A stretch of 64,000 nucleotides of DNA, from assembly GCF_040958695.1 (NCBI RefSeq), contig NZ_CP162599.1, positions 2,762,001-2,826,000 on the forward strand, read 5' to 3'. The first letter of the stretch is position 1, and each line of letters opens with the position of its first letter. Below, one piece after another: positions 33,352-42,632 of the stretch. Source of the stretch: Ornithinibacillus sp. 4-3 (GTDB lineage Bacteria; Bacillota; Bacilli; Bacillales; Amphibacillaceae). Below the pieces are notes generated by a model. The model was given only the letters and a program-made list of their open reading frames with translations, did not search any database and had not been told where the DNA came from. Position numbers and translations under genes: made by a program.

Positions 33352-35127
33352 TTATTTTATCAAGCCAACAACAAGATGTGGTTCATCTTTAATTTTTTCA
33401 TACGCATCATTTGCATGGAATACTATTTCTTTTCTCTCTGTGATTCCATAGATAATTTGTACATTTGGATTTTCTTTTTTGTAATCATCAATTGTATATA
33501 TTTCAGTGATATTTGTTTGTTTCAAGCTTGCTCCTTCAGCAATAAGCTCATTTAACATATGAATATCTGCACCTTCGCCAATTAAAATTTGACCACCAAA
33601 TTTCGGAGAATAATGTTTTGGATCTGCCTCATGAACAGCTGTTTGATAAATATGCTGTCTACCAAGACTTGGAACAAAATCTGCACAAACAAGAACATTG
33701 TATGCATCATGACTTGTTGCAGCAATCAATTGATTATATGGTGTTAAATCAACATGAAATTCCGTATGTTCACTTAAAATATCTCCCGCTTCCGTATGAA
33801 CACCCATTTGCCTTGCTTCAGCTAGATCCTCCCAATTTCGGTCCATCAATAATACTTCAAAGCCATTTTTTTGTATGGAAGCAGCTAGCTGACTGGTAAA
33901 TGGCGAAGCTCCAATAATAATAATTCCTTCTTTGTTACTAGCTTGTAGCCCTAATTTTTTGGCAAGCCATTCAATACTGAATCCATGAGAAATAACAGTT
34001 GCAAATACTAGAGCTAGAGTTAGAGCCGTTAGTAATTCAGCACTTTGAAAGCCGACATCCTGAAGCGCAGTGGCAAAATAACCCGAAACCGTCAAGGCGA
34101 CAATACCTCTTGGTGCGATCCATCCGATGAGGGTTCGTTCCTGCCAGGTTAAACTTGTATTGATTGTTGCAAGCCAAATCGATAATGGCCGTACAATAAA
34201 TAACATTGCTAGCACAAAGAAGAACATACGCCAATCTAAAATCTGCAATAAGGTATCTGTTGTTAATGAAGCGGTCAACATAATAAAGACGGTAGAAATT
34301 AATAAAACAGAAATATTTTCCTTAAAATGAAGTAATTCATGATGGCTGCTTAGACGCATATTCCCCATCACTAGCCCCATTACAGTAACTGCAAGTAAGC
34401 CTGTTTCATGCATAATTGCGTCACTTAAAGAAAATACAATTAAAACCATAGCAAGCAACATAGATGATTTTAAGAATTCAGGAATGATTCCACGTTCAAA
34501 TGCTTGTCCCATTAAATAACCTACTACCCCACCAAGTAATGCAGCCAATAATGCGGAGATAAAGAATACACTTAGCGATGTACCACCTTCAAGCTGATAG
34601 ACTCCCAACACTACTTGATATGCAAACAATGCGAGAAGCGCTCCAAATGGATCGACTACAATCCCTTCCCATTTCAATACTGCTGCTGGACGTTCTTTTA
34701 ATTTCGCTTGTCGTAACAACGGTAAAATTACGGTAGGTCCAGTAACAACAAATAAGCCCCCAATAACAAAAGCAACAGGCCAAGATAATCCAGCCACATA
34801 ATGTGCTGCAACTGTTCCGGCTATCCATGCGATTGCAGCACCAACAGTAGAAATCCGTAGAATAGAACGTTTAAAATCACGAATTTCTCGAAAATCTAAA
34901 CTAAGGCTACCTTCAAACAAAATTACCGCAACAGCTAAAGAAATAACGGTTTGAAAGATCGGCCCGAATGTCTCACTCGGCTCCACCAATCCTGTAAATG
35001 GACCAATGATTAAGCCGGCAACACTCATAATTACAATAGCTGGCATTCGAAATCTCCATGCAATCCACTGAGAAAATAATCCAATAAAAATAAGAAAAGC
35101 CAATTGAAATAATAGAGTATCAAACAT
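33352..35127 (-). CDS. CPA1-type Na+(K+)/H+ antiporter with C-terminal Rossmann domain
   Basis: A 591-residue membrane antiporter. About 12 helices (residues 1-395) carry the NhaP-like motifs TGPTVILPLLRQ and GIVVDPFGALLA, the Asp of the latter being the transport residue. After residue ~400 comes a TrkA-N-like nucleotide-binding domain (GIIIIGASPFTSQLAASI...VLLMDRNWEDL), suggesting control by NAD(H) or another nucleotide. Likely expels Na+ or K+ for pH and salt balance. AGGTGAT lies before the ATG. Convergent with brnQ. Confidence 0.9.
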   Translation of the reverse strand: MFDTLLFQLAFLIFIGLFSQWIAWRFRMPAIVIMSVAGLIIGPFTGLVEPSETFGPIFQTVISLAVAVILFEGSLSLDFREIRDFKRSILRISTVGAAIAWIAGTVAAHYVAGLSWPVAFVIGGLFVVTGPTVILPLLRQAKLKERPAAVLKWEGIVVDPFGALLALFAYQVVLGVYQLEGGTSLSVFFISALLAALLGGVVGYLMGQAFERGIIPEFLKSSMLLAMVLIVFSLSDAIMHETGLLAVTVMGLVMGNMRLSSHHELLHFKENISVLLISTVFIMLTASLTTDTLLQILDWRMFFFVLAMLFIVRPLSIWLATINTSLTWQERTLIGWIAPRGIVALTVSGYFATALQDVGFQSAELLTALTLALVFATVISHGFSIEWLAKKLGLQASNKEGIIIIGASPFTSQLAASIQKNGFEVLLMDRNWEDLAEARQMGVHTEAGDILSEHTEFHVDLTPYNQLIAATSHDAYNVLVCADFVPSLGRQHIYQTAVHEADPKHYSPKFGGQILIGEGADIHMLNELIAEGASLKQTNITEIYTIDDYKKENPNVQIIYGITERKEIVFHANDAYEKIKDEPHLVVGLIK

Positions 35128-35341
35128 CTATATCACCTGCCTATCCTCTCCCATTAGGAGTTATAAAATATACATAATATAACATATCCATACCACAAAA
35201 TAAAACTTCCTCGTAAAAAGTAATTATGTCTGTCATAATTGCAAATTTATATATACATTTACAAAATAATTCTATAATATGTTAATTATTAAGAAAATTC
35301 CTTTTAGTAAGAAAAAAACACAGGACGGAAAGGGGAAACAA

Positions 35342-36937
35342 ATGAAAAAGGTTAACTTTACACTAATCACATTATTATTTATACTAAGCATCGCCTTGAT
35401 AGGTTGTTCTAGTGGCGATAAGGAAACAGCAAACACCCCTAATGAAGATGCGAATGAAGAAAAAGATGACAACGCAAAATATGGTGGCGACTTACATTTC
35501 GCCTTTAATGCACAGCCACCGAACCTAGATCCACCAACAAACACAAGCCTAGATACTCGTGATATTGGACATCATATATTCGAACCACTTCTTACATTAA
35601 ATACAAAATTTGAAGTGCAACCAATGTTAGCGGAAGATTATGAAGTTAGTGATGATGGAAAAGAAATAACCTTTCATTTACGTCAAGGAATTAAATTTCA
35701 TAATGGCAAAGAAGTTACCTCAGAAGATGTGGTTGCATCAATGGAAAGATGGCAAGAACTGTCTTCGCAAGCGCAGACTTACTTAAACGGAACTACATAT
35801 GAGGCAGTAGATGAACATACAATAGTGGCGCATATACCTAATCCAACTACATTAGATTTATATATTATTGCTGATTTAACTCAGTTCCCAGCAATTATGC
35901 CTAAAGAAATTGTAGAGAAGGCAGGTAAAGAATGGGTGGAAGAATATGTTGGTACTGGTCCATATAAATTAGAGGAATGGAAACAGGATCAATACATTAA
36001 ACTTACCAGATATGAGGATTTTCAATCACGGACAGAGCCTGCGGATGGATTAGCAGGAGAGAAGAAAGCTTATGTAGATAATGTATACTTCCATGTTGTT
36101 CAAGATTTATCAACCCGTGTTTCTGGATTGCAAACAGGAGAATACCATGTTGCGAAAAACATTACACAGGATAGTGCAGAATTAATAGAAGCAGATGACA
36201 ACTTAAAAAATGAATTATATACGACAGGTTTTCCGATTATTCTCTTTAATAAAAAAGAAGGCGTATTTACAGATAATCTAGTTCGTAAAGCAGCTAATGC
36301 AGCAGTTAATGTGGAAGATATTTTAATTGCCACATACGGAAATGAAAAATACTATCAAAAGAATCACTCGCTCGTGAAAGAGGAACAAACAAATTGGTAT
36401 ACAGAAGCAGGAAAAGAGGAATATGAATTATATGATTTAGAATTAGCAAAGGAGCTCTTAGAACAATCAAGCTATAATGGAGAAGAAATTACCATTTTAA
36501 CAACTCGTGATATTATGGAATGGTATAATATGATGGTTGTTGTTCAACAGCAATTAGAACAAATTGGTATGAATGTGAAATTAGATGTAACAGATTCTGC
36601 AACCATATCTGAACGCTTAGATGATCCTTCAGGATGGGATTTATATTCCACCTCATTCGCCTTCCGTCCAATGCCAATTATGTACCACTTCTTAAATCCA
36701 GAATGGTATGGTTGGATCGATAGTGAAGAAATTGATGAGCTCAAAGATAAAATTTTACATGCAGCAACACAAGAAGAAGCTGAAGGTTACAAGGACCAAT
36801 TACATGAAGCGGTGTGGGACTATTTGCCAGCCATTAAAACTGGTGACCAAACAACCATTGTTTCTATGAAAAAAGAAATAGATGGTTATCAGCATGTTGC
36901 TGGTCCAATCATTTGGAATGTATCTTTAAATGAATAA
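35342..36937 (+). CDS. Family-5 ABC transporter solute-binding lipoprotein (SBP-2)
   Basis: A 531-residue lipoprotein, lipobox ALIGC. It is a close relative of SBP-1: ITFHLRQGIKFHNGKEV, SEDVVASMERW, GTGPYKLEEWKQDQY, RTEPADGLAGEKKAYVDNVYF. The ATG at 35342 has AAAGGGG before it; the longer frame starting at 35279 lacks a site. It is the only member of the group on the plus strand and stands alone, with no transport partners or hydrolase next to it; a Dus gene follows after a terminator. Confidence 0.92.
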   Translation: MKKVNFTLITLLFILSIALIGCSSGDKETANTPNEDANEEKDDNAKYGGDLHFAFNAQPPNLDPPTNTSLDTRDIGHHIFEPLLTLNTKFEVQPMLAEDYEVSDDGKEITFHLRQGIKFHNGKEVTSEDVVASMERWQELSSQAQTYLNGTTYEAVDEHTIVAHIPNPTTLDLYIIADLTQFPAIMPKEIVEKAGKEWVEEYVGTGPYKLEEWKQDQYIKLTRYEDFQSRTEPADGLAGEKKAYVDNVYFHVVQDLSTRVSGLQTGEYHVAKNITQDSAELIEADDNLKNELYTTGFPIILFNKKEGVFTDNLVRKAANAAVNVEDILIATYGNEKYYQKNHSLVKEEQTNWYTEAGKEEYELYDLELAKELLEQSSYNGEEITILTTRDIMEWYNMMVVVQQQLEQIGMNVKLDVTDSATISERLDDPSGWDLYSTSFAFRPMPIMYHFLNPEWYGWIDSEEIDELKDKILHAATQEEAEGYKDQLHEAVWDYLPAIKTGDQTTIVSMKKEIDGYQHVAGPIIWNVSLNE

Positions 36938-38112: not shown

Positions 38113-38154
38113 TAGAAAAAACTCCTTGATTAAAAAAACAAGGAGTTTTTTCTA
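38113..38154. terminator. Bidirectional terminator between dus and the PII gene
   Basis: Perfect stem AGAAAAAACTCCTTG/CAAGGAGTTTTTTCT between convergent genes. Confidence 0.93.
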
Positions 38155-38157
38155 TGT

Positions 38158-38835
38158 TTATTTATATAATCCGTATGTGGCATGAACATCTTGGATAAAT
38201 ATAATTCCATTACCAGGCTCATCAATTTTCAGCTTCTTCTTGATTGCTCTAGCAATAGCTTCTGTTGTTTCTTTTTCAGATAAAATCAGGACCATTTCTT
38301 TCTCAGGTTCAATTTCCATAGCAAAGAGCTTACTAGTTTCATGGATTCCTGAACCTCTTGCATTCAAGATTGTTCCACCTTTTGAACCTGCTCCGACCGC
38401 TGCATCAATTACATATTCTGCATTTCCTTTTTCTACAATCACTGAAATTACATGATACATGATCTGCTCCGCTCCTCTATCTTCTTTTAAATAATCATCT
38501 TTTTTATATGTTCCAGCACCAATAATATAACCTACGGATGTAGTAAAAGCTATTCCATGATTAGGCTTGGAAAACTTAAACTTTTTATCTAGCTCTCCAA
38601 TAGCTTTTCGTGCTGTTTCTTTATCAGCAACCATGAAAACAACTTCTTTTCTCACTTCATCTATCGCTAAAAATTCCAAAAGTCGACTTTTGACAGTACC
38701 TTTACCTAGTAATACTGTACCGCCAGAGACCCCACAACTCCTTGCTTTCTGTATAATCTTACTGCCTAATCCATAGTTGACAATAATACAAATACGTTCA
38801 TATTCTTTATCATTAGCATCAGAGCTACTGAACAT
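38158..38835 (-). CDS. Tandem PII-like (GlnB-fold) regulatory protein
   Basis: A 225-residue protein with two PII-like domains in a row, residues ~14-105 and ~127-218. They align with each other: GGTVLLGKGTV with GGTILNARGSG, FLAIDEVRKEVVFMVADKET with FAMEIEPEKEMVLILSEKET, and PNHGIAFTTSV with PGNGIIFIQDV. The T-loop is short and has no tyrosine of the uridylylation type, so control is probably by small-molecule binding. The start overlaps the DUF1538 gene by 11 bases, with GGAAGGA upstream. By analogy to GlnK-AmtB it should regulate the neighbouring transporter. Confidence 0.88.
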   Translation of the reverse strand: MFSSSDANDKEYERICIIVNYGLGSKIIQKARSCGVSGGTVLLGKGTVKSRLLEFLAIDEVRKEVVFMVADKETARKAIGELDKKFKFSKPNHGIAFTTSVGYIIGAGTYKKDDYLKEDRGAEQIMYHVISVIVEKGNAEYVIDAAVGAGSKGGTILNARGSGIHETSKLFAMEIEPEKEMVLILSEKETTEAIARAIKKKLKIDEPGNGIIFIQDVHATYGLYK

Positions 38836-40318
38836 CTCTTGCCATCCTTCCCTTTTTAGACTTCAACTTAAATATTAATCCTAAGACTTGTAAAGCAATT
38901 AAAGGAGTCAGAGCAACCATGGCGATCATTCCAAATCCATCCACAATAACATTTGCTCCTTCAACTGATTCTGCTGCACCCTGGACAAACGCTAATATAA
39001 ACGTAGCAGTCATTGGACCTGACGCAACACCCCCAGAATCAAATGCAATTCCAACAAATAATTTTCCAACAAAGAATGTCATAGCAAGAGCAATTGCATA
39101 ACCAGGCAATAAATAATGCCATAATTGTAGCTCTGGTACGATTATGCGAAGTACGGATAAAGCAATAGCAACTCCTACCCCGATAGATAAGGATAGCATA
39201 ACAACACTACGCTTCACATAACCACTCGTCACTTCTTCAATTTGATTGGTCAATACATATACAGCTGGCTCTGCTAAAATAGTTACTAGCCCTAAAATAA
39301 AGGCTATAATAATAAGATACGCTTTATTGTCTAAAGAAGCAATACTATACCCTACTGAAGCACCTACATCCATAAATCCAGCATTTACACCTACTAAAAA
39401 TAATACTAGTCCAATAAATGTAAATAAGAGTCCTTCTAAAATTTTTCTTACTCCCCTTTTTGACATCTTGAAGCTAAATTTCTGAAAAATGAGGAACATA
39501 ATAATAATTGGTAACAACGCAATAACAATTTCTCCAGATATTATTGGAATTTCGTGTAAAAATGGTCCAAATATAGAAGATGTATCTGCTGTTCTTGTTT
39601 CCAAGCTACCTGACATTTCTTCTGTACCTTTAACAATATTCATAATCATAACTGCAATAATTGCACCTGCTGATGCAATCGCTACTAGACCAAAACTATC
39701 CTCTTCAGAAGCTATACTATTCTTCTTCATAGAGGAAACGCCAAGAGCAAGTGCTAAGATAAATGGCACCGTTAGTGCACCAGTTGTTGCTCCGGAAGCA
39801 TCAAATGAAATCGCAAGAAATTCAGAAGATGTAAAAAGTGCAAGAATAAAGATAATTCCATAAATAACAATAAGCATTTTATGTATAGGAATATTATACA
39901 CAATTCGAACAAGCCCTGTTGAAATCAGTACCCCAATACCGATTGAAACAACTACAACAATACTAAGCTTTGTAATCAAACCTGATGTTACTAGATCAAC
40001 TTGACCTGCTAAAATATGTAAATCCGGCTCCGCAATTGAAATAAAGAATCCAAGTAAAATTCCAACAACAATGATAACCCACATTTTATTTGGTTTAACA
40101 ATCGCTTTCCCCATCGATTCACCTATTGGGGTTACTCCCAAATCTACACCAAATAAAAATATTGTTAGTCCAACAATTATAAATATTGCCCCTATAGCAA
40201 ATTGGATCATTAAGGATGTTTCCAGATGTATGATTGTATAATTCAAAATGAATACAATAATTGTGATTGGTAGAACAGCAAATACTACCTCTTTTAGTTT
40301 AGCACCTAATATATTCAA
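38825..40318 (-). CDS. Duplicated DUF1538 membrane transporter (putative cation/H+ antiporter)
   Basis: A ~497-residue membrane protein made of two homologous DUF1538 halves (about residues 10-220 and 255-490). Internal repeats are plain: AEPDLHILAGQVDLVTSG with AEPAVYVLTNQIEEVTSG, and ISFDASGATTGALTVPFILAL with IAFDSGGVASGPMTATFILAF. Two-gene DUF1538 pairs (UmpAB) have been reported as Na+(Li+,K+)/H+ antiporters in Halomonas; here both halves are fused. I choose TTG 40318, with AAAGGA nine bases upstream; the in-frame TTG at 40336 has no site. It is translationally coupled to the tandem PII gene. Confidence 0.85.
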   Translation of the reverse strand: MNILGAKLKEVVFAVLPITIIVFILNYTIIHLETSLMIQFAIGAIFIIVGLTIFLFGVDLGVTPIGESMGKAIVKPNKMWVIIVVGILLGFFISIAEPDLHILAGQVDLVTSGLITKLSIVVVVSIGIGVLISTGLVRIVYNIPIHKMLIVIYGIIFILALFTSSEFLAISFDASGATTGALTVPFILALALGVSSMKKNSIASEEDSFGLVAIASAGAIIAVMIMNIVKGTEEMSGSLETRTADTSSIFGPFLHEIPIISGEIVIALLPIIIMFLIFQKFSFKMSKRGVRKILEGLLFTFIGLVLFLVGVNAGFMDVGASVGYSIASLDNKAYLIIIAFILGLVTILAEPAVYVLTNQIEEVTSGYVKRSVVMLSLSIGVGVAIALSVLRIIVPELQLWHYLLPGYAIALAMTFFVGKLFVGIAFDSGGVASGPMTATFILAFVQGAAESVEGANVIVDGFGMIAMVALTPLIALQVLGLIFKLKSKKGRMARDVQ

Positions 40319-40424
40319 AAAAACCAATCCTTTCAATAAGAATCGAACAAAAACATAAAGAAAACTTTATGTTGTCAATAATGCTTTGGTATGATTACTC
40401 TCTGATTTTTTAAAATCTTCTTGA

Positions 40425-40560
40425 TAAAAAATAACCTATTTCCTGTAGGTTATGAAATCTGCGATATCCGCCAAAAGCTTTATCTTTGTTCAGTAAACAG
40501 GTGTTTCCTCCCACTGAACAGAAAAAATGTAGCTTCACTCTTCACAGATAGATGTGTGAG
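40425..40560 (-). promoter_or_regulatory. Candidate structured leader RNA of the DUF1538-PII operon
   Basis: On the minus strand: an outer AAGCU/AGCUU pairing encloses a 7-bp GUUCAGU/ACUGAAC stem (plus 40489-40520) with a GGGAGGAAACACCU loop; a GGCGGAUAUCGC segment follows; then an AUAACCU/AGGUUAU stem at 40431-40453 runs into UUUUUU. This is a folded domain ahead of a terminator, about 110 nt before the start codon, as in a riboswitch. It does not match any riboswitch class I can recall. Confidence 0.45.
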
Positions 40561-41057: not shown

Positions 41058-42632
41058 TTATTCTGTAACACTTACATTCCAATAAACTGGACCTGAAGTT
41101 GTAGTAAGCCCTTCTACATTTGTGCCATATCCATATAGGTAATGGTAAACACCGTTTTGAATAACAGGTAGAAGTTCTTCCCAAGCATAAAGCTGTAATT
41201 CATCCCAAATTGCTTTTGCTTCTTCAGTAGTAGGAGCAACTTCGATTTGTTTCATCATTTCCCCTACTTTATCATCATTCACTCCACCAGCATAGCTATC
41301 ACTTAACGCAAGTAACTGCGGTGGTGTACTCACAACAGAGAATGAGTTTACGACAGCATCCCATTCATCTTGATTATTCTCAATTTTATCAACCATTGTT
41401 GGCCAATCATACACCTCTAGTTGTGCATTAATTCCCATTTGTTTTAATTGTTCTTGAATTGCAATTCCAGCATTGTAAAATTCAATATAATCACGTGTTG
41501 TTAGAATAGTAAATTCTTCCCCAGCATAACCCATTTCATCTAACATTTCTTTAGCTTTTTCTGGATCATTCTGATTATAATATTCACTTCCTGCATCACT
41601 TGCCCATGTTTCAATTTCTCTATCCATATAACTTGAATCAATTGTGAATAGATCCTCATTTGGGAAAGCAGCCATTAAAATATCTTCATGATTTAATCCA
41701 ACATTGATAGCTTGTCTCATTTTTATGTCAGAAGAAAGCCCTTCAACATTATTCATGATTAACACTTGATTTCCTTCTTTAGCCATAATCGTTTCAATAT
41801 TTGGATCTTCTTTAAAATCATTATACATATCATATGGTAAACCATGGACTATATCATATTCACCTGTTTGTAATCCTGTTAATCTAGTTGTAGGATCTGT
41901 AACAATGTGTAGATAGATTTCATCTACTAATGCTTCTTTTTTTCCTGCTAAACCATCTGGTTCACCAGAAACAGGTTGGTAATCTTCAAATTTTTCATAA
42001 CGAATATACTGGTCTTGTCTCCATTCCGCAAATTTAAAAGGACCTGTTCCAATATATTCTTGTACTCCTTCTGCTGGAGCAGATTCGACAATCTCTTTTG
42101 GCATAATACCTGCCGCTTGTTTAGAAGATGCAATAGTATCTAATACAAGTGCAGATGCTTCTTCCAATTCAAGTACAACTGTATAATCATCTTCTGCTGT
42201 CCATGTTGCATCTTCAAAGATATTTCCTGTAACAGAGGATTTTTCCATCCAACGTTCCATTGAAGCAACAACATCCTCTGCTGTCATTTCTTCTCCGTTA
42301 TGGAACTTAATTCCTTCTCTTAAATGGAATGTATATGTCTTATTATCTTCTGTATCAATAGACTCTGCTAACATTGGTTGCGGATTAAATTTGGAATCTG
42401 TAACTACTAAACTTTCAAAAATTGGTCTCGCTGCATCACGTGTAGCCGTAGCTGAAACTGCTGGCTGATCTAGTGATGGCGGAGCTCCATCAATCGCAAT
42501 GTTTAATGTACCCCCACTATTTTCACCACTTGCATCAGAATCATTGTTACCTGAAGATGAATCTGACCCACAAGCTGCAACGATAAATAGCATAGCTGTA
42601 AGTATCGTTATTAACAATAAATTTCGCTTCAT
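41058..42632 (-). CDS. Family-5 ABC transporter solute-binding lipoprotein (SBP-3)
   Basis: A 524-residue lipoprotein, lipobox VAAC, with a Ser/Gly/Asp-rich linker. The same subfamily as SBP-1: YTFHLREGIKFHNGEEM, AEDVVASMERW, GTGPFKFAEWRQDQY, GEPDGLAGKKEALVDEIYLHIV. AAAGGGG precedes the ATG. A cre site lies ~100 bp upstream, so CcpA control is likely. Upstream on the same strand are a small cupin and a homocysteine S-methyltransferase, separated by 371 bp. No permease or ATPase is present. Confidence 0.92.
   Translation of the reverse strand: MKRNLLLITILTAMLFIVAACGSDSSSGNNDSDASGENSGGTLNIAIDGAPPSLDQPAVSATATRDAARPIFESLVVTDSKFNPQPMLAESIDTEDNKTYTFHLREGIKFHNGEEMTAEDVVASMERWMEKSSVTGNIFEDATWTAEDDYTVVLELEEASALVLDTIASSKQAAGIMPKEIVESAPAEGVQEYIGTGPFKFAEWRQDQYIRYEKFEDYQPVSGEPDGLAGKKEALVDEIYLHIVTDPTTRLTGLQTGEYDIVHGLPYDMYNDFKEDPNIETIMAKEGNQVLIMNNVEGLSSDIKMRQAINVGLNHEDILMAAFPNEDLFTIDSSYMDREIETWASDAGSEYYNQNDPEKAKEMLDEMGYAGEEFTILTTRDYIEFYNAGIAIQEQLKQMGINAQLEVYDWPTMVDKIENNQDEWDAVVNSFSVVSTPPQLLALSDSYAGGVNDDKVGEMMKQIEVAPTTEEAKAIWDELQLYAWEELLPVIQNGVYHYLYGYGTNVEGLTTTSGPVYWNVSVTE

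Follow-up and report, generated by a model that had tools for sequence, protein, structure and literature searches.

In Escherichia coli, the gene of the PII protein GlnK stands beside that of its membrane target (glnK-amtB), and the PII-like protein SbtB is paired with the cyanobacterial bicarbonate transporter SbtA, which belongs to a transporter family other than DUF1538. UmpAB of Halomonas zhaodongensis is reported to be an Na+(Li+,K+)/H+ antiporter made of a DUF1538 pair (PMC5484666), and it was the only characterized DUF1538 system that we found in the literature. Here, we analyzed a locus of Ornithinibacillus sp. 4-3 in which a fused two-unit DUF1538 membrane protein and a tandem PII protein are encoded by overlapping genes. 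The locus lies in a 64,000-nucleotide stretch of contig NZ_CP162599.1 (positions 2,762,001 to 2,826,000), henceforth referred to as the window, in whose own numbering coordinates are given. We propose that DUF1538 and PII very probably function together as a single regulated unit, grown by duplication and fusion, and consider it reasonably likely that this unit is a regulated transport module, namely a PII-gated alkali-cation/H+ antiporter of the UmpAB type.

The locus resembles each of the described systems in part. As in UmpAB, a DUF1538 A unit is followed by a homologous B unit, the N half being nearest to UmpA and the C half to UmpB; in contrast to UmpAB, the units are fused in one chain, score far below the equivalog cut-offs and have a PII partner, which goes unmentioned in the main text of the UmpAB paper (PMC5484666). 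With GlnK–AmtB, the locus shares the PII fold and a PII gene beside that of a membrane target, whereas its PII gene is tandem and downstream of the transporter gene, and the T-loop of its product is shorter, lacks Tyr51 and is accompanied by changes at the places of R38, K90, R101 and R103. The difference from SbtB–SbtA is that a single chain holds two unlike PII domains. The module would work in the manner of PII-gated carriers as a class, and the features that it demonstrably shares with them are gene pairing and the PII fold. No link between DUF1538 and PII was found in the literature searched, a search that left most subscription journals outside its scope; likewise, no mention of PII was found in two cable-bacteria papers that mention UmpAB, and none of P-II or nitrogen regulation in PMC13255231.

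Two duplicated proteins encoded by overlapping genes

The DUF1538 gene (38825-40318, minus strand) is initiated with a TTG codon (40316-40318) and encodes a protein of 497 amino acids. Because a Shine-Dalgarno-like AAAGGA sequence stands 9 bases 5' of this TTG (40328-40333), the 497-residue form was preferred over the longer open reading frame (ORF). PF07556 matched the single chain in two stretches (454 bits against a Pfam cut-off of 22.6). The N half (39635-40267, minus strand) is an UmpA-like A unit, predicted to have its N-terminus inside, and the C half (38873-39508, minus strand) is an UmpB-like B unit, predicted to be inverted relative to the N half; the limits of both halves are those of their PF07556 matches, and the assignments rest on the nearest NCBIfam model and on lysine/arginine bias. 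The tandem PII gene (38158-38835, minus strand) starts with ATG and encodes 225 amino acids, and PF00543 also matched its product in two stretches (53.4 bits against a Pfam cut-off of 25). The PII-N domain (residues 12-101; 38533-38802, minus strand) has a short T-loop predicted to be helical (51-55), and the PII-C domain (residues 127-221; 38173-38457, minus strand) carries the conserved ARGSGIHE...IEPEKE. AlphaFold2 modeled both proteins, the tandem PII with a mean pLDDT of 87.9 and the DUF1538 protein with a mean pLDDT of 86.2 and a pTM of 0.86.

The original prediction, made from the letters of the DNA alone, had seen paired repeats in both proteins and an overlap of their genes, and both were confirmed. 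The two DUF1538 halves aligned to each other with 29% identity (E 6e-29) and the two PII halves with 32% identity over 91 residues (E 3e-13). The DUF1538 stop codon (38825-38827) lies downstream of the PII start codon (38833-38835), such that the two frames share 11 bases (38825-38835, minus strand).

Pairing of DUF1538 with PII and its architectures

The genome survey that had been set as a check on the pairing was carried out on a phylum sample of 398 genomes, of which 139 carried DUF1538. The DUF1538 regions of 134 were examined with their flanks; the five left out were the window genome itself (G000) and four genomes (G153, G107, G254 and G282) whose matches lie no more than about 400 bases from the start of a contig. 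Open reading frame starts were assigned mechanically. Prevalence was taken from this sample alone, as a named scan was biased to fused proteins and listed the best 80 of a larger number of matches. A PII gene adjoined DUF1538 on the same strand in 130 of the 134 genomes. Among the four misses, the contig ends 135 and 49 bases past the DUF1538 domain in G313 and G304, respectively; G056 holds a DUF1538 pseudogene with internal stops and has no PF00543 match anywhere in its genome; and G218 has a fused DUF1538 gene without an adjacent PII gene and a tandem N-C PII of the module type on a different contig. When all sets were combined and 11 duplicates removed, PII was present in 239 of the 249 clusters carrying DUF1538. 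The ten clusters without PII include five at contig ends (L187, L040, L246, L115 and L277), a DUF1538 fragment with an intact locus in the same region (L038), the G056 pseudogene (L276) and the G218 locus (L087). Judged from sequence, the DUF1538–PII partnership is strongly supported.

The pairing was also found on plasmids of the Alphaproteobacteria Methylocystis and Chelativorans, whose annotations name DUF1538 proteins and a P-II family nitrogen regulator, and, among the matches listed, at one Chloroflexota, three Spirochaetes and one Mobiluncus locus. Of the 206 loci scored, 137 have a PII Met start, placed by rule of thumb, that overlaps the stop of DUF1538. A search of 1.81 Mb of flanks with the module profile returned one PII outside the DUF1538 clusters, in L259. 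As this profile could miss a canonical PII, a search with E. coli GlnK was added, and its matches in the flanks were all module PII genes (25/25), with none outside. The lone PII-type domain of L259 (289-600, minus strand) is N-type and scores 26.9 bits, with a fused module locus about 4 kb away. No other conserved neighbor was found, the commonest flanking cluster being a generic ABC ATPase that occurs in all orientations at 23 of 223 loci.

Writing D for a DUF1538 unit, P for a PII domain and a hyphen for units in the same chain, the deduplicated clusters comprised 126 D-D P-P, 33 D D P, 29 D D P-P, 16 D P, 14 D D P P and 5 D-D P P, together with 3 in which P-P accompanies D-D-P; apart from the PII-less and three cut clusters, each remaining architecture occurs in one or two clusters. 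At least two PII domains were present in all 135 simple fused-transporter clusters that have PII (irregular fused clusters L172, L074, L093, L106, L110 and L243 being excluded), and exactly one in all 15 uncut stand-alone D clusters (contig-edge cluster L293 and three D P-P clusters being excluded). PII domains were typed with N and C profiles built from two-domain chains, so that independent typing comes from single genes alone. All of these lone PII genes were C-type, in 33/33 D D P and 16/16 D P clusters. The second PII domain or gene was C-type in 177/177 simple two-PII clusters (D-D P-P, D D P-P, D D P P, D-D P P and three cut D P-P), and the first was N-type in 131/131 fused-transporter clusters.

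Trees were computed from 35 fused and 35 split loci taken at random, plus the stand-alone loci. In the PII tree, which has few columns, a single branch set the sampled PII-N domains apart (60 rows, support 95). In the DUF1538 tree, stand-alone, A and B units each occupied one side of a branch, and the 35 sampled fused loci grouped together, among the A units as among the B units. The rule that fused transporters go with tandem PII therefore probably rests on one fusion event. The co-occurrence that the original prediction had proposed to survey holds throughout the 135 clusters, in the form of at least two PII domains, but probably counts as a single event, and in 29 clusters a tandem PII accompanies an unfused pair.

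In three loci, the module is extended into a single DUF1538-DUF1538-PII chain of 600, 618 and 626 residues (L204, L245 and L255, respectively). L204 is from a Spirochaetaceae metagenome-assembled genome, and the other two are from genomes of the window's phylum; a tandem PII gene lies just upstream of the fusion in all three. The welded PII domain occupies the same place in the three genomes and scores modestly with the module profile (42.5 to 58.2 bits); at E 0.01, Pfam did not list that of L204. Two further arrangements were observed. Mobiluncus porci carries two consecutive fused DUF1538 genes (L172, 2385-6566); a tandem PII gene comes after the first of them and a lone C-type PII gene after the second. 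Stand-alone D P and fused D-D P-P loci coexist in G040 (L105/L259) and G082 (L077/L242).

Charge bias and topology of the DUF1538 halves

AlphaFold2 gave ten helical pieces per DUF1538 half, which we read as a putative seven crossings; one of these is interrupted at E97-P98 and another around D173-G180. The same number, seven spans, was predicted for each UmpAB subunit (PMC5484666). K+R bias was calculated by counting Lys and Arg residues in alternating loops, the loops being drawn from the AlphaFold2 helices of the window protein and the charges in alignment A4; the comparison of A with B is partly post hoc, and alignment A4 excludes the stand-alone DUF1538 proteins. The bias was positive in 203 of 204 A units (mean +5.51 in fused, n=130, and +3.43 in split, n=74) and negative in 200 of 207 B units (mean -4.86 in fused, n=132, and -3.35 in split, n=75). 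The mean loop bias of the stand-alone proteins was -0.13, with a range of -2 to 2 (n=15), and mean total loop charges were 6.3 to 9.1. Three other loop definitions gave the same ranking; the narrowest cut the B means to -1.5 and -0.9, with the signs of A and B kept. Tail charges were also opposite between A and B, and adding the tails gave +4.5 for split A and -7.1 for split B units.

For comparison, the reported bias lies between -2 and 1 in five dual-topology candidates and has absolute values of 6 to 7 in the partners of antiparallel pairs (PMC3962082). The A and B halves are very probably inverted relative to each other, and the stand-alone DUF1538 proteins would probably be dual-topology. 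From the opposite bias of A and B, together with the near-zero bias of the stand-alone proteins, the fused protein can be read as a probable inverted repeat whose ancestor had dual topology. EmrE, DUF606 and YdgQ/YdgL present a similar series of low-bias stand-alone proteins, oppositely biased pairs and fused two-unit forms (PMC3962082). The dual-topology proteins tabulated in that paper have 3-4 crossings, against about 230 residues and probably 7 crossings in a DUF1538 unit, and DUF1538 differs further in having a soluble regulator attached. The deduced topology would place the C-terminus inside, which matches the side needed for the welded PII.

This arrangement bears on the docking of one PII domain on each transporter half, which the original prediction had put forward. 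If the halves are inverted, as their opposite bias indicates, their cytoplasmic faces are not equivalent, and this proposal is weakened; the 33 clusters with two DUF1538 genes and one PII gene weaken it as well. What appears to be new relative to the known systems is that DUF1538 has an inverted, probably dual-topology ancestry and that its PII partner multiplied in parallel, as a single gene, a pair and a tandem.

Proposed function, alternatives and implications

Four acidic residues, E97, D173, E350 and D427, were invariant in 61/61 aligned sequences, as a cation/proton antiporter would need. By its PF00543 score and its fold, the tandem PII falls within the PII superfamily and outside the canonical GlnB/GlnK proteins. 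The short T-loop without a modification tyrosine, which had been noticed beforehand, was borne out in PII-C, whose alignment with E. coli GlnK shows a 6-residue gap in the T-loop and no Tyr51. PII-C has Ile, Ile, Gly and Tyr at the places of GlnK R38, K90, R101 and R103, which we take to be the phosphate-contact residues of GlnK. Their replacement argues against a classical ATP/2-oxoglutarate sensor and names no ligand. The Pfam profile of the c-di-AMP receptor PstA/DarA did not match, a Pfam scan at E<=1 yielding P-II and two sub-threshold families.

In the mechanism that we favor, the transporter would be an inverted repeat of two 7-crossing units, one UmpA-like and one UmpB-like, with a probably dual-topology ancestor, and would probably swap alkali cations for protons, as in Halomonas UmpAB. 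The dedicated PII would probably sit on the cytoplasmic face of the transporter, opening or shutting it in response to a small ligand that the PII-C domain would bind, probably an adenine nucleotide; the PII-N domain would be a later copy that arrived with the paired transporter. In this mechanism, we infer direct PII binding, gating, the ligand, antiport by the window protein and the dual topology of the stand-alone forms.

Several observations weigh against this mechanism. UmpAB was active in E. coli from a 4.2-kb clone, described as carrying four ORFs and no PII gene (PMC5484666); PII is therefore dispensable for transport, as expected for a regulator. The N half scored 178.2 bits with UmpA (NF041627; equivalog cut-off 490) and the C half 142.6 bits with UmpB (NF041628; cut-off 500), values so far below the cut-offs that the substrate is not assured. 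A comparison of the DUF1538 model with the PDB gave no clear match. Two loci, L168, where the downstream reading was limited to 4 kb, and L288 of G735, are real exceptions, with intact DUF1538 and no adjacent module PII; G735 carries an intact DUF1538 pair (L288 and L208), and its only PF00543 match scores as canonical-like and lies elsewhere. When tails were added, the stand-alone bias rose to +0.93 with a range of -3 to 5, a less clean result. Finally, the first PII was N-type in 27 of 43 split loci (21/29 and 6/14), so that the N/C distinction is sharp only with fused transporters. G735 offers a natural test case for transport without the PII switch.

One alternative is a PII-gated carrier of another solute, such as bicarbonate, ammonium or an organic ion, with UmpAB antiport as a side or branch-specific activity; we regard it as unlikely, as the sole characterized relatives found are described as antiporters (PMC5484666), the invariant Glu and Asp residues in broken helices suit cation/proton coupling, and DUF1538 is reported among the key Pfams of pH adaptation (PMC13255231). 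It is considerably less probable that PII is co-expressed without touching the transporter and signals elsewhere, for example as the general PII of the cell. The tandem PII is indeed the sole PF00543 match in the window genome, which has one DUF1538 locus, and the same-family genomes G554, G655 and G717 have one match each (a PF00543 protein was present in 13/14 control genomes, Bacillus subtilis included). However, G048, G203 and G386 carry a module PII besides a canonical-scoring one, PII is covalently fused to the transporter in three loci, the pairing extends across phyla with frequent gene overlap, and in G056 the broken transporter and the absence of PII coincide.

An equally slim chance is given to parallel halves whose charge difference marks PII docking surfaces. 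The 7-crossing count is our own reading of the AlphaFold2 helices, and the choice of loops was partly guided by charges, both of which leave room for this arrangement; nevertheless, the difference appears in summed loop groups and in both tails, for A and B, fused and split, and 7 spans per subunit were also predicted for UmpAB (PMC5484666). The PII-gated antiporter is our preferred explanation. As an interpretation, the original prediction gains from the conserved pairing and the three covalent fusions and gives ground on docking of one PII per half.

The surroundings of the module in the window contain other features. A hairpin with T-runs on both strands (38116-38151), read from the sequence, is a probable terminator common to the PII gene and a convergent dihydrouridine synthase gene; its 10-base loop is above the loop limit of the hairpin scan, and it is absent from the scan list. 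The inverted repeat TGTTCAGT...ACTGAACA at 40487-40520, 5' of the DUF1538 gene, is a candidate operator or terminator and is not covered by any Rfam match. A second, unrelated cation/proton antiporter (PF00999 and TrkA_N; 33352-35127, minus strand) is encoded about 3 kb away from the module and has a nucleotide-binding-type domain within its own chain. Family-5 solute-binding proteins (SBP_bac_5) are encoded on opposite strands of the flanks (35279-36937, plus strand; 41058-42632, minus strand), and no ABC permease was found among the six window neighbors scanned.

A fuller reading, which we put forward tentatively as possible rather than probable, is that of a dual-topology DUF1538 family with a co-evolving PII, in which a nonclassical, adenine-nucleotide-binding PII-C gates the antiporter. 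A stand-alone dual-topology DUF1538 protein (about 230 residues, 7 crossings) with one PII would have given rise to an antiparallel pair; PII would then have duplicated into unlike N and C forms, which fused before the transporter did, and a third PII domain would have been welded on last, in one branch. PII-C, without the classical ATP/2-oxoglutarate chemistry, would set cytoplasmic pH or Na+ by gating alkali-cation/H+ exchange; no PII target of this type was met in the literature searched. PII signaling is best known from the control of nitrogen and carbon. If our reading is true, such signaling would also control the ion and pH balance of many Bacillota and of several further phyla, by way of a partner that genome annotations already name and that the literature searched does not link to PII, and a domain of unknown function would become a testable regulated antiporter. 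DUF1538 would then represent a dual-topology lineage with living single, paired and fused intermediates, in which the duplication of a soluble partner may be compared with that of the membrane protein.
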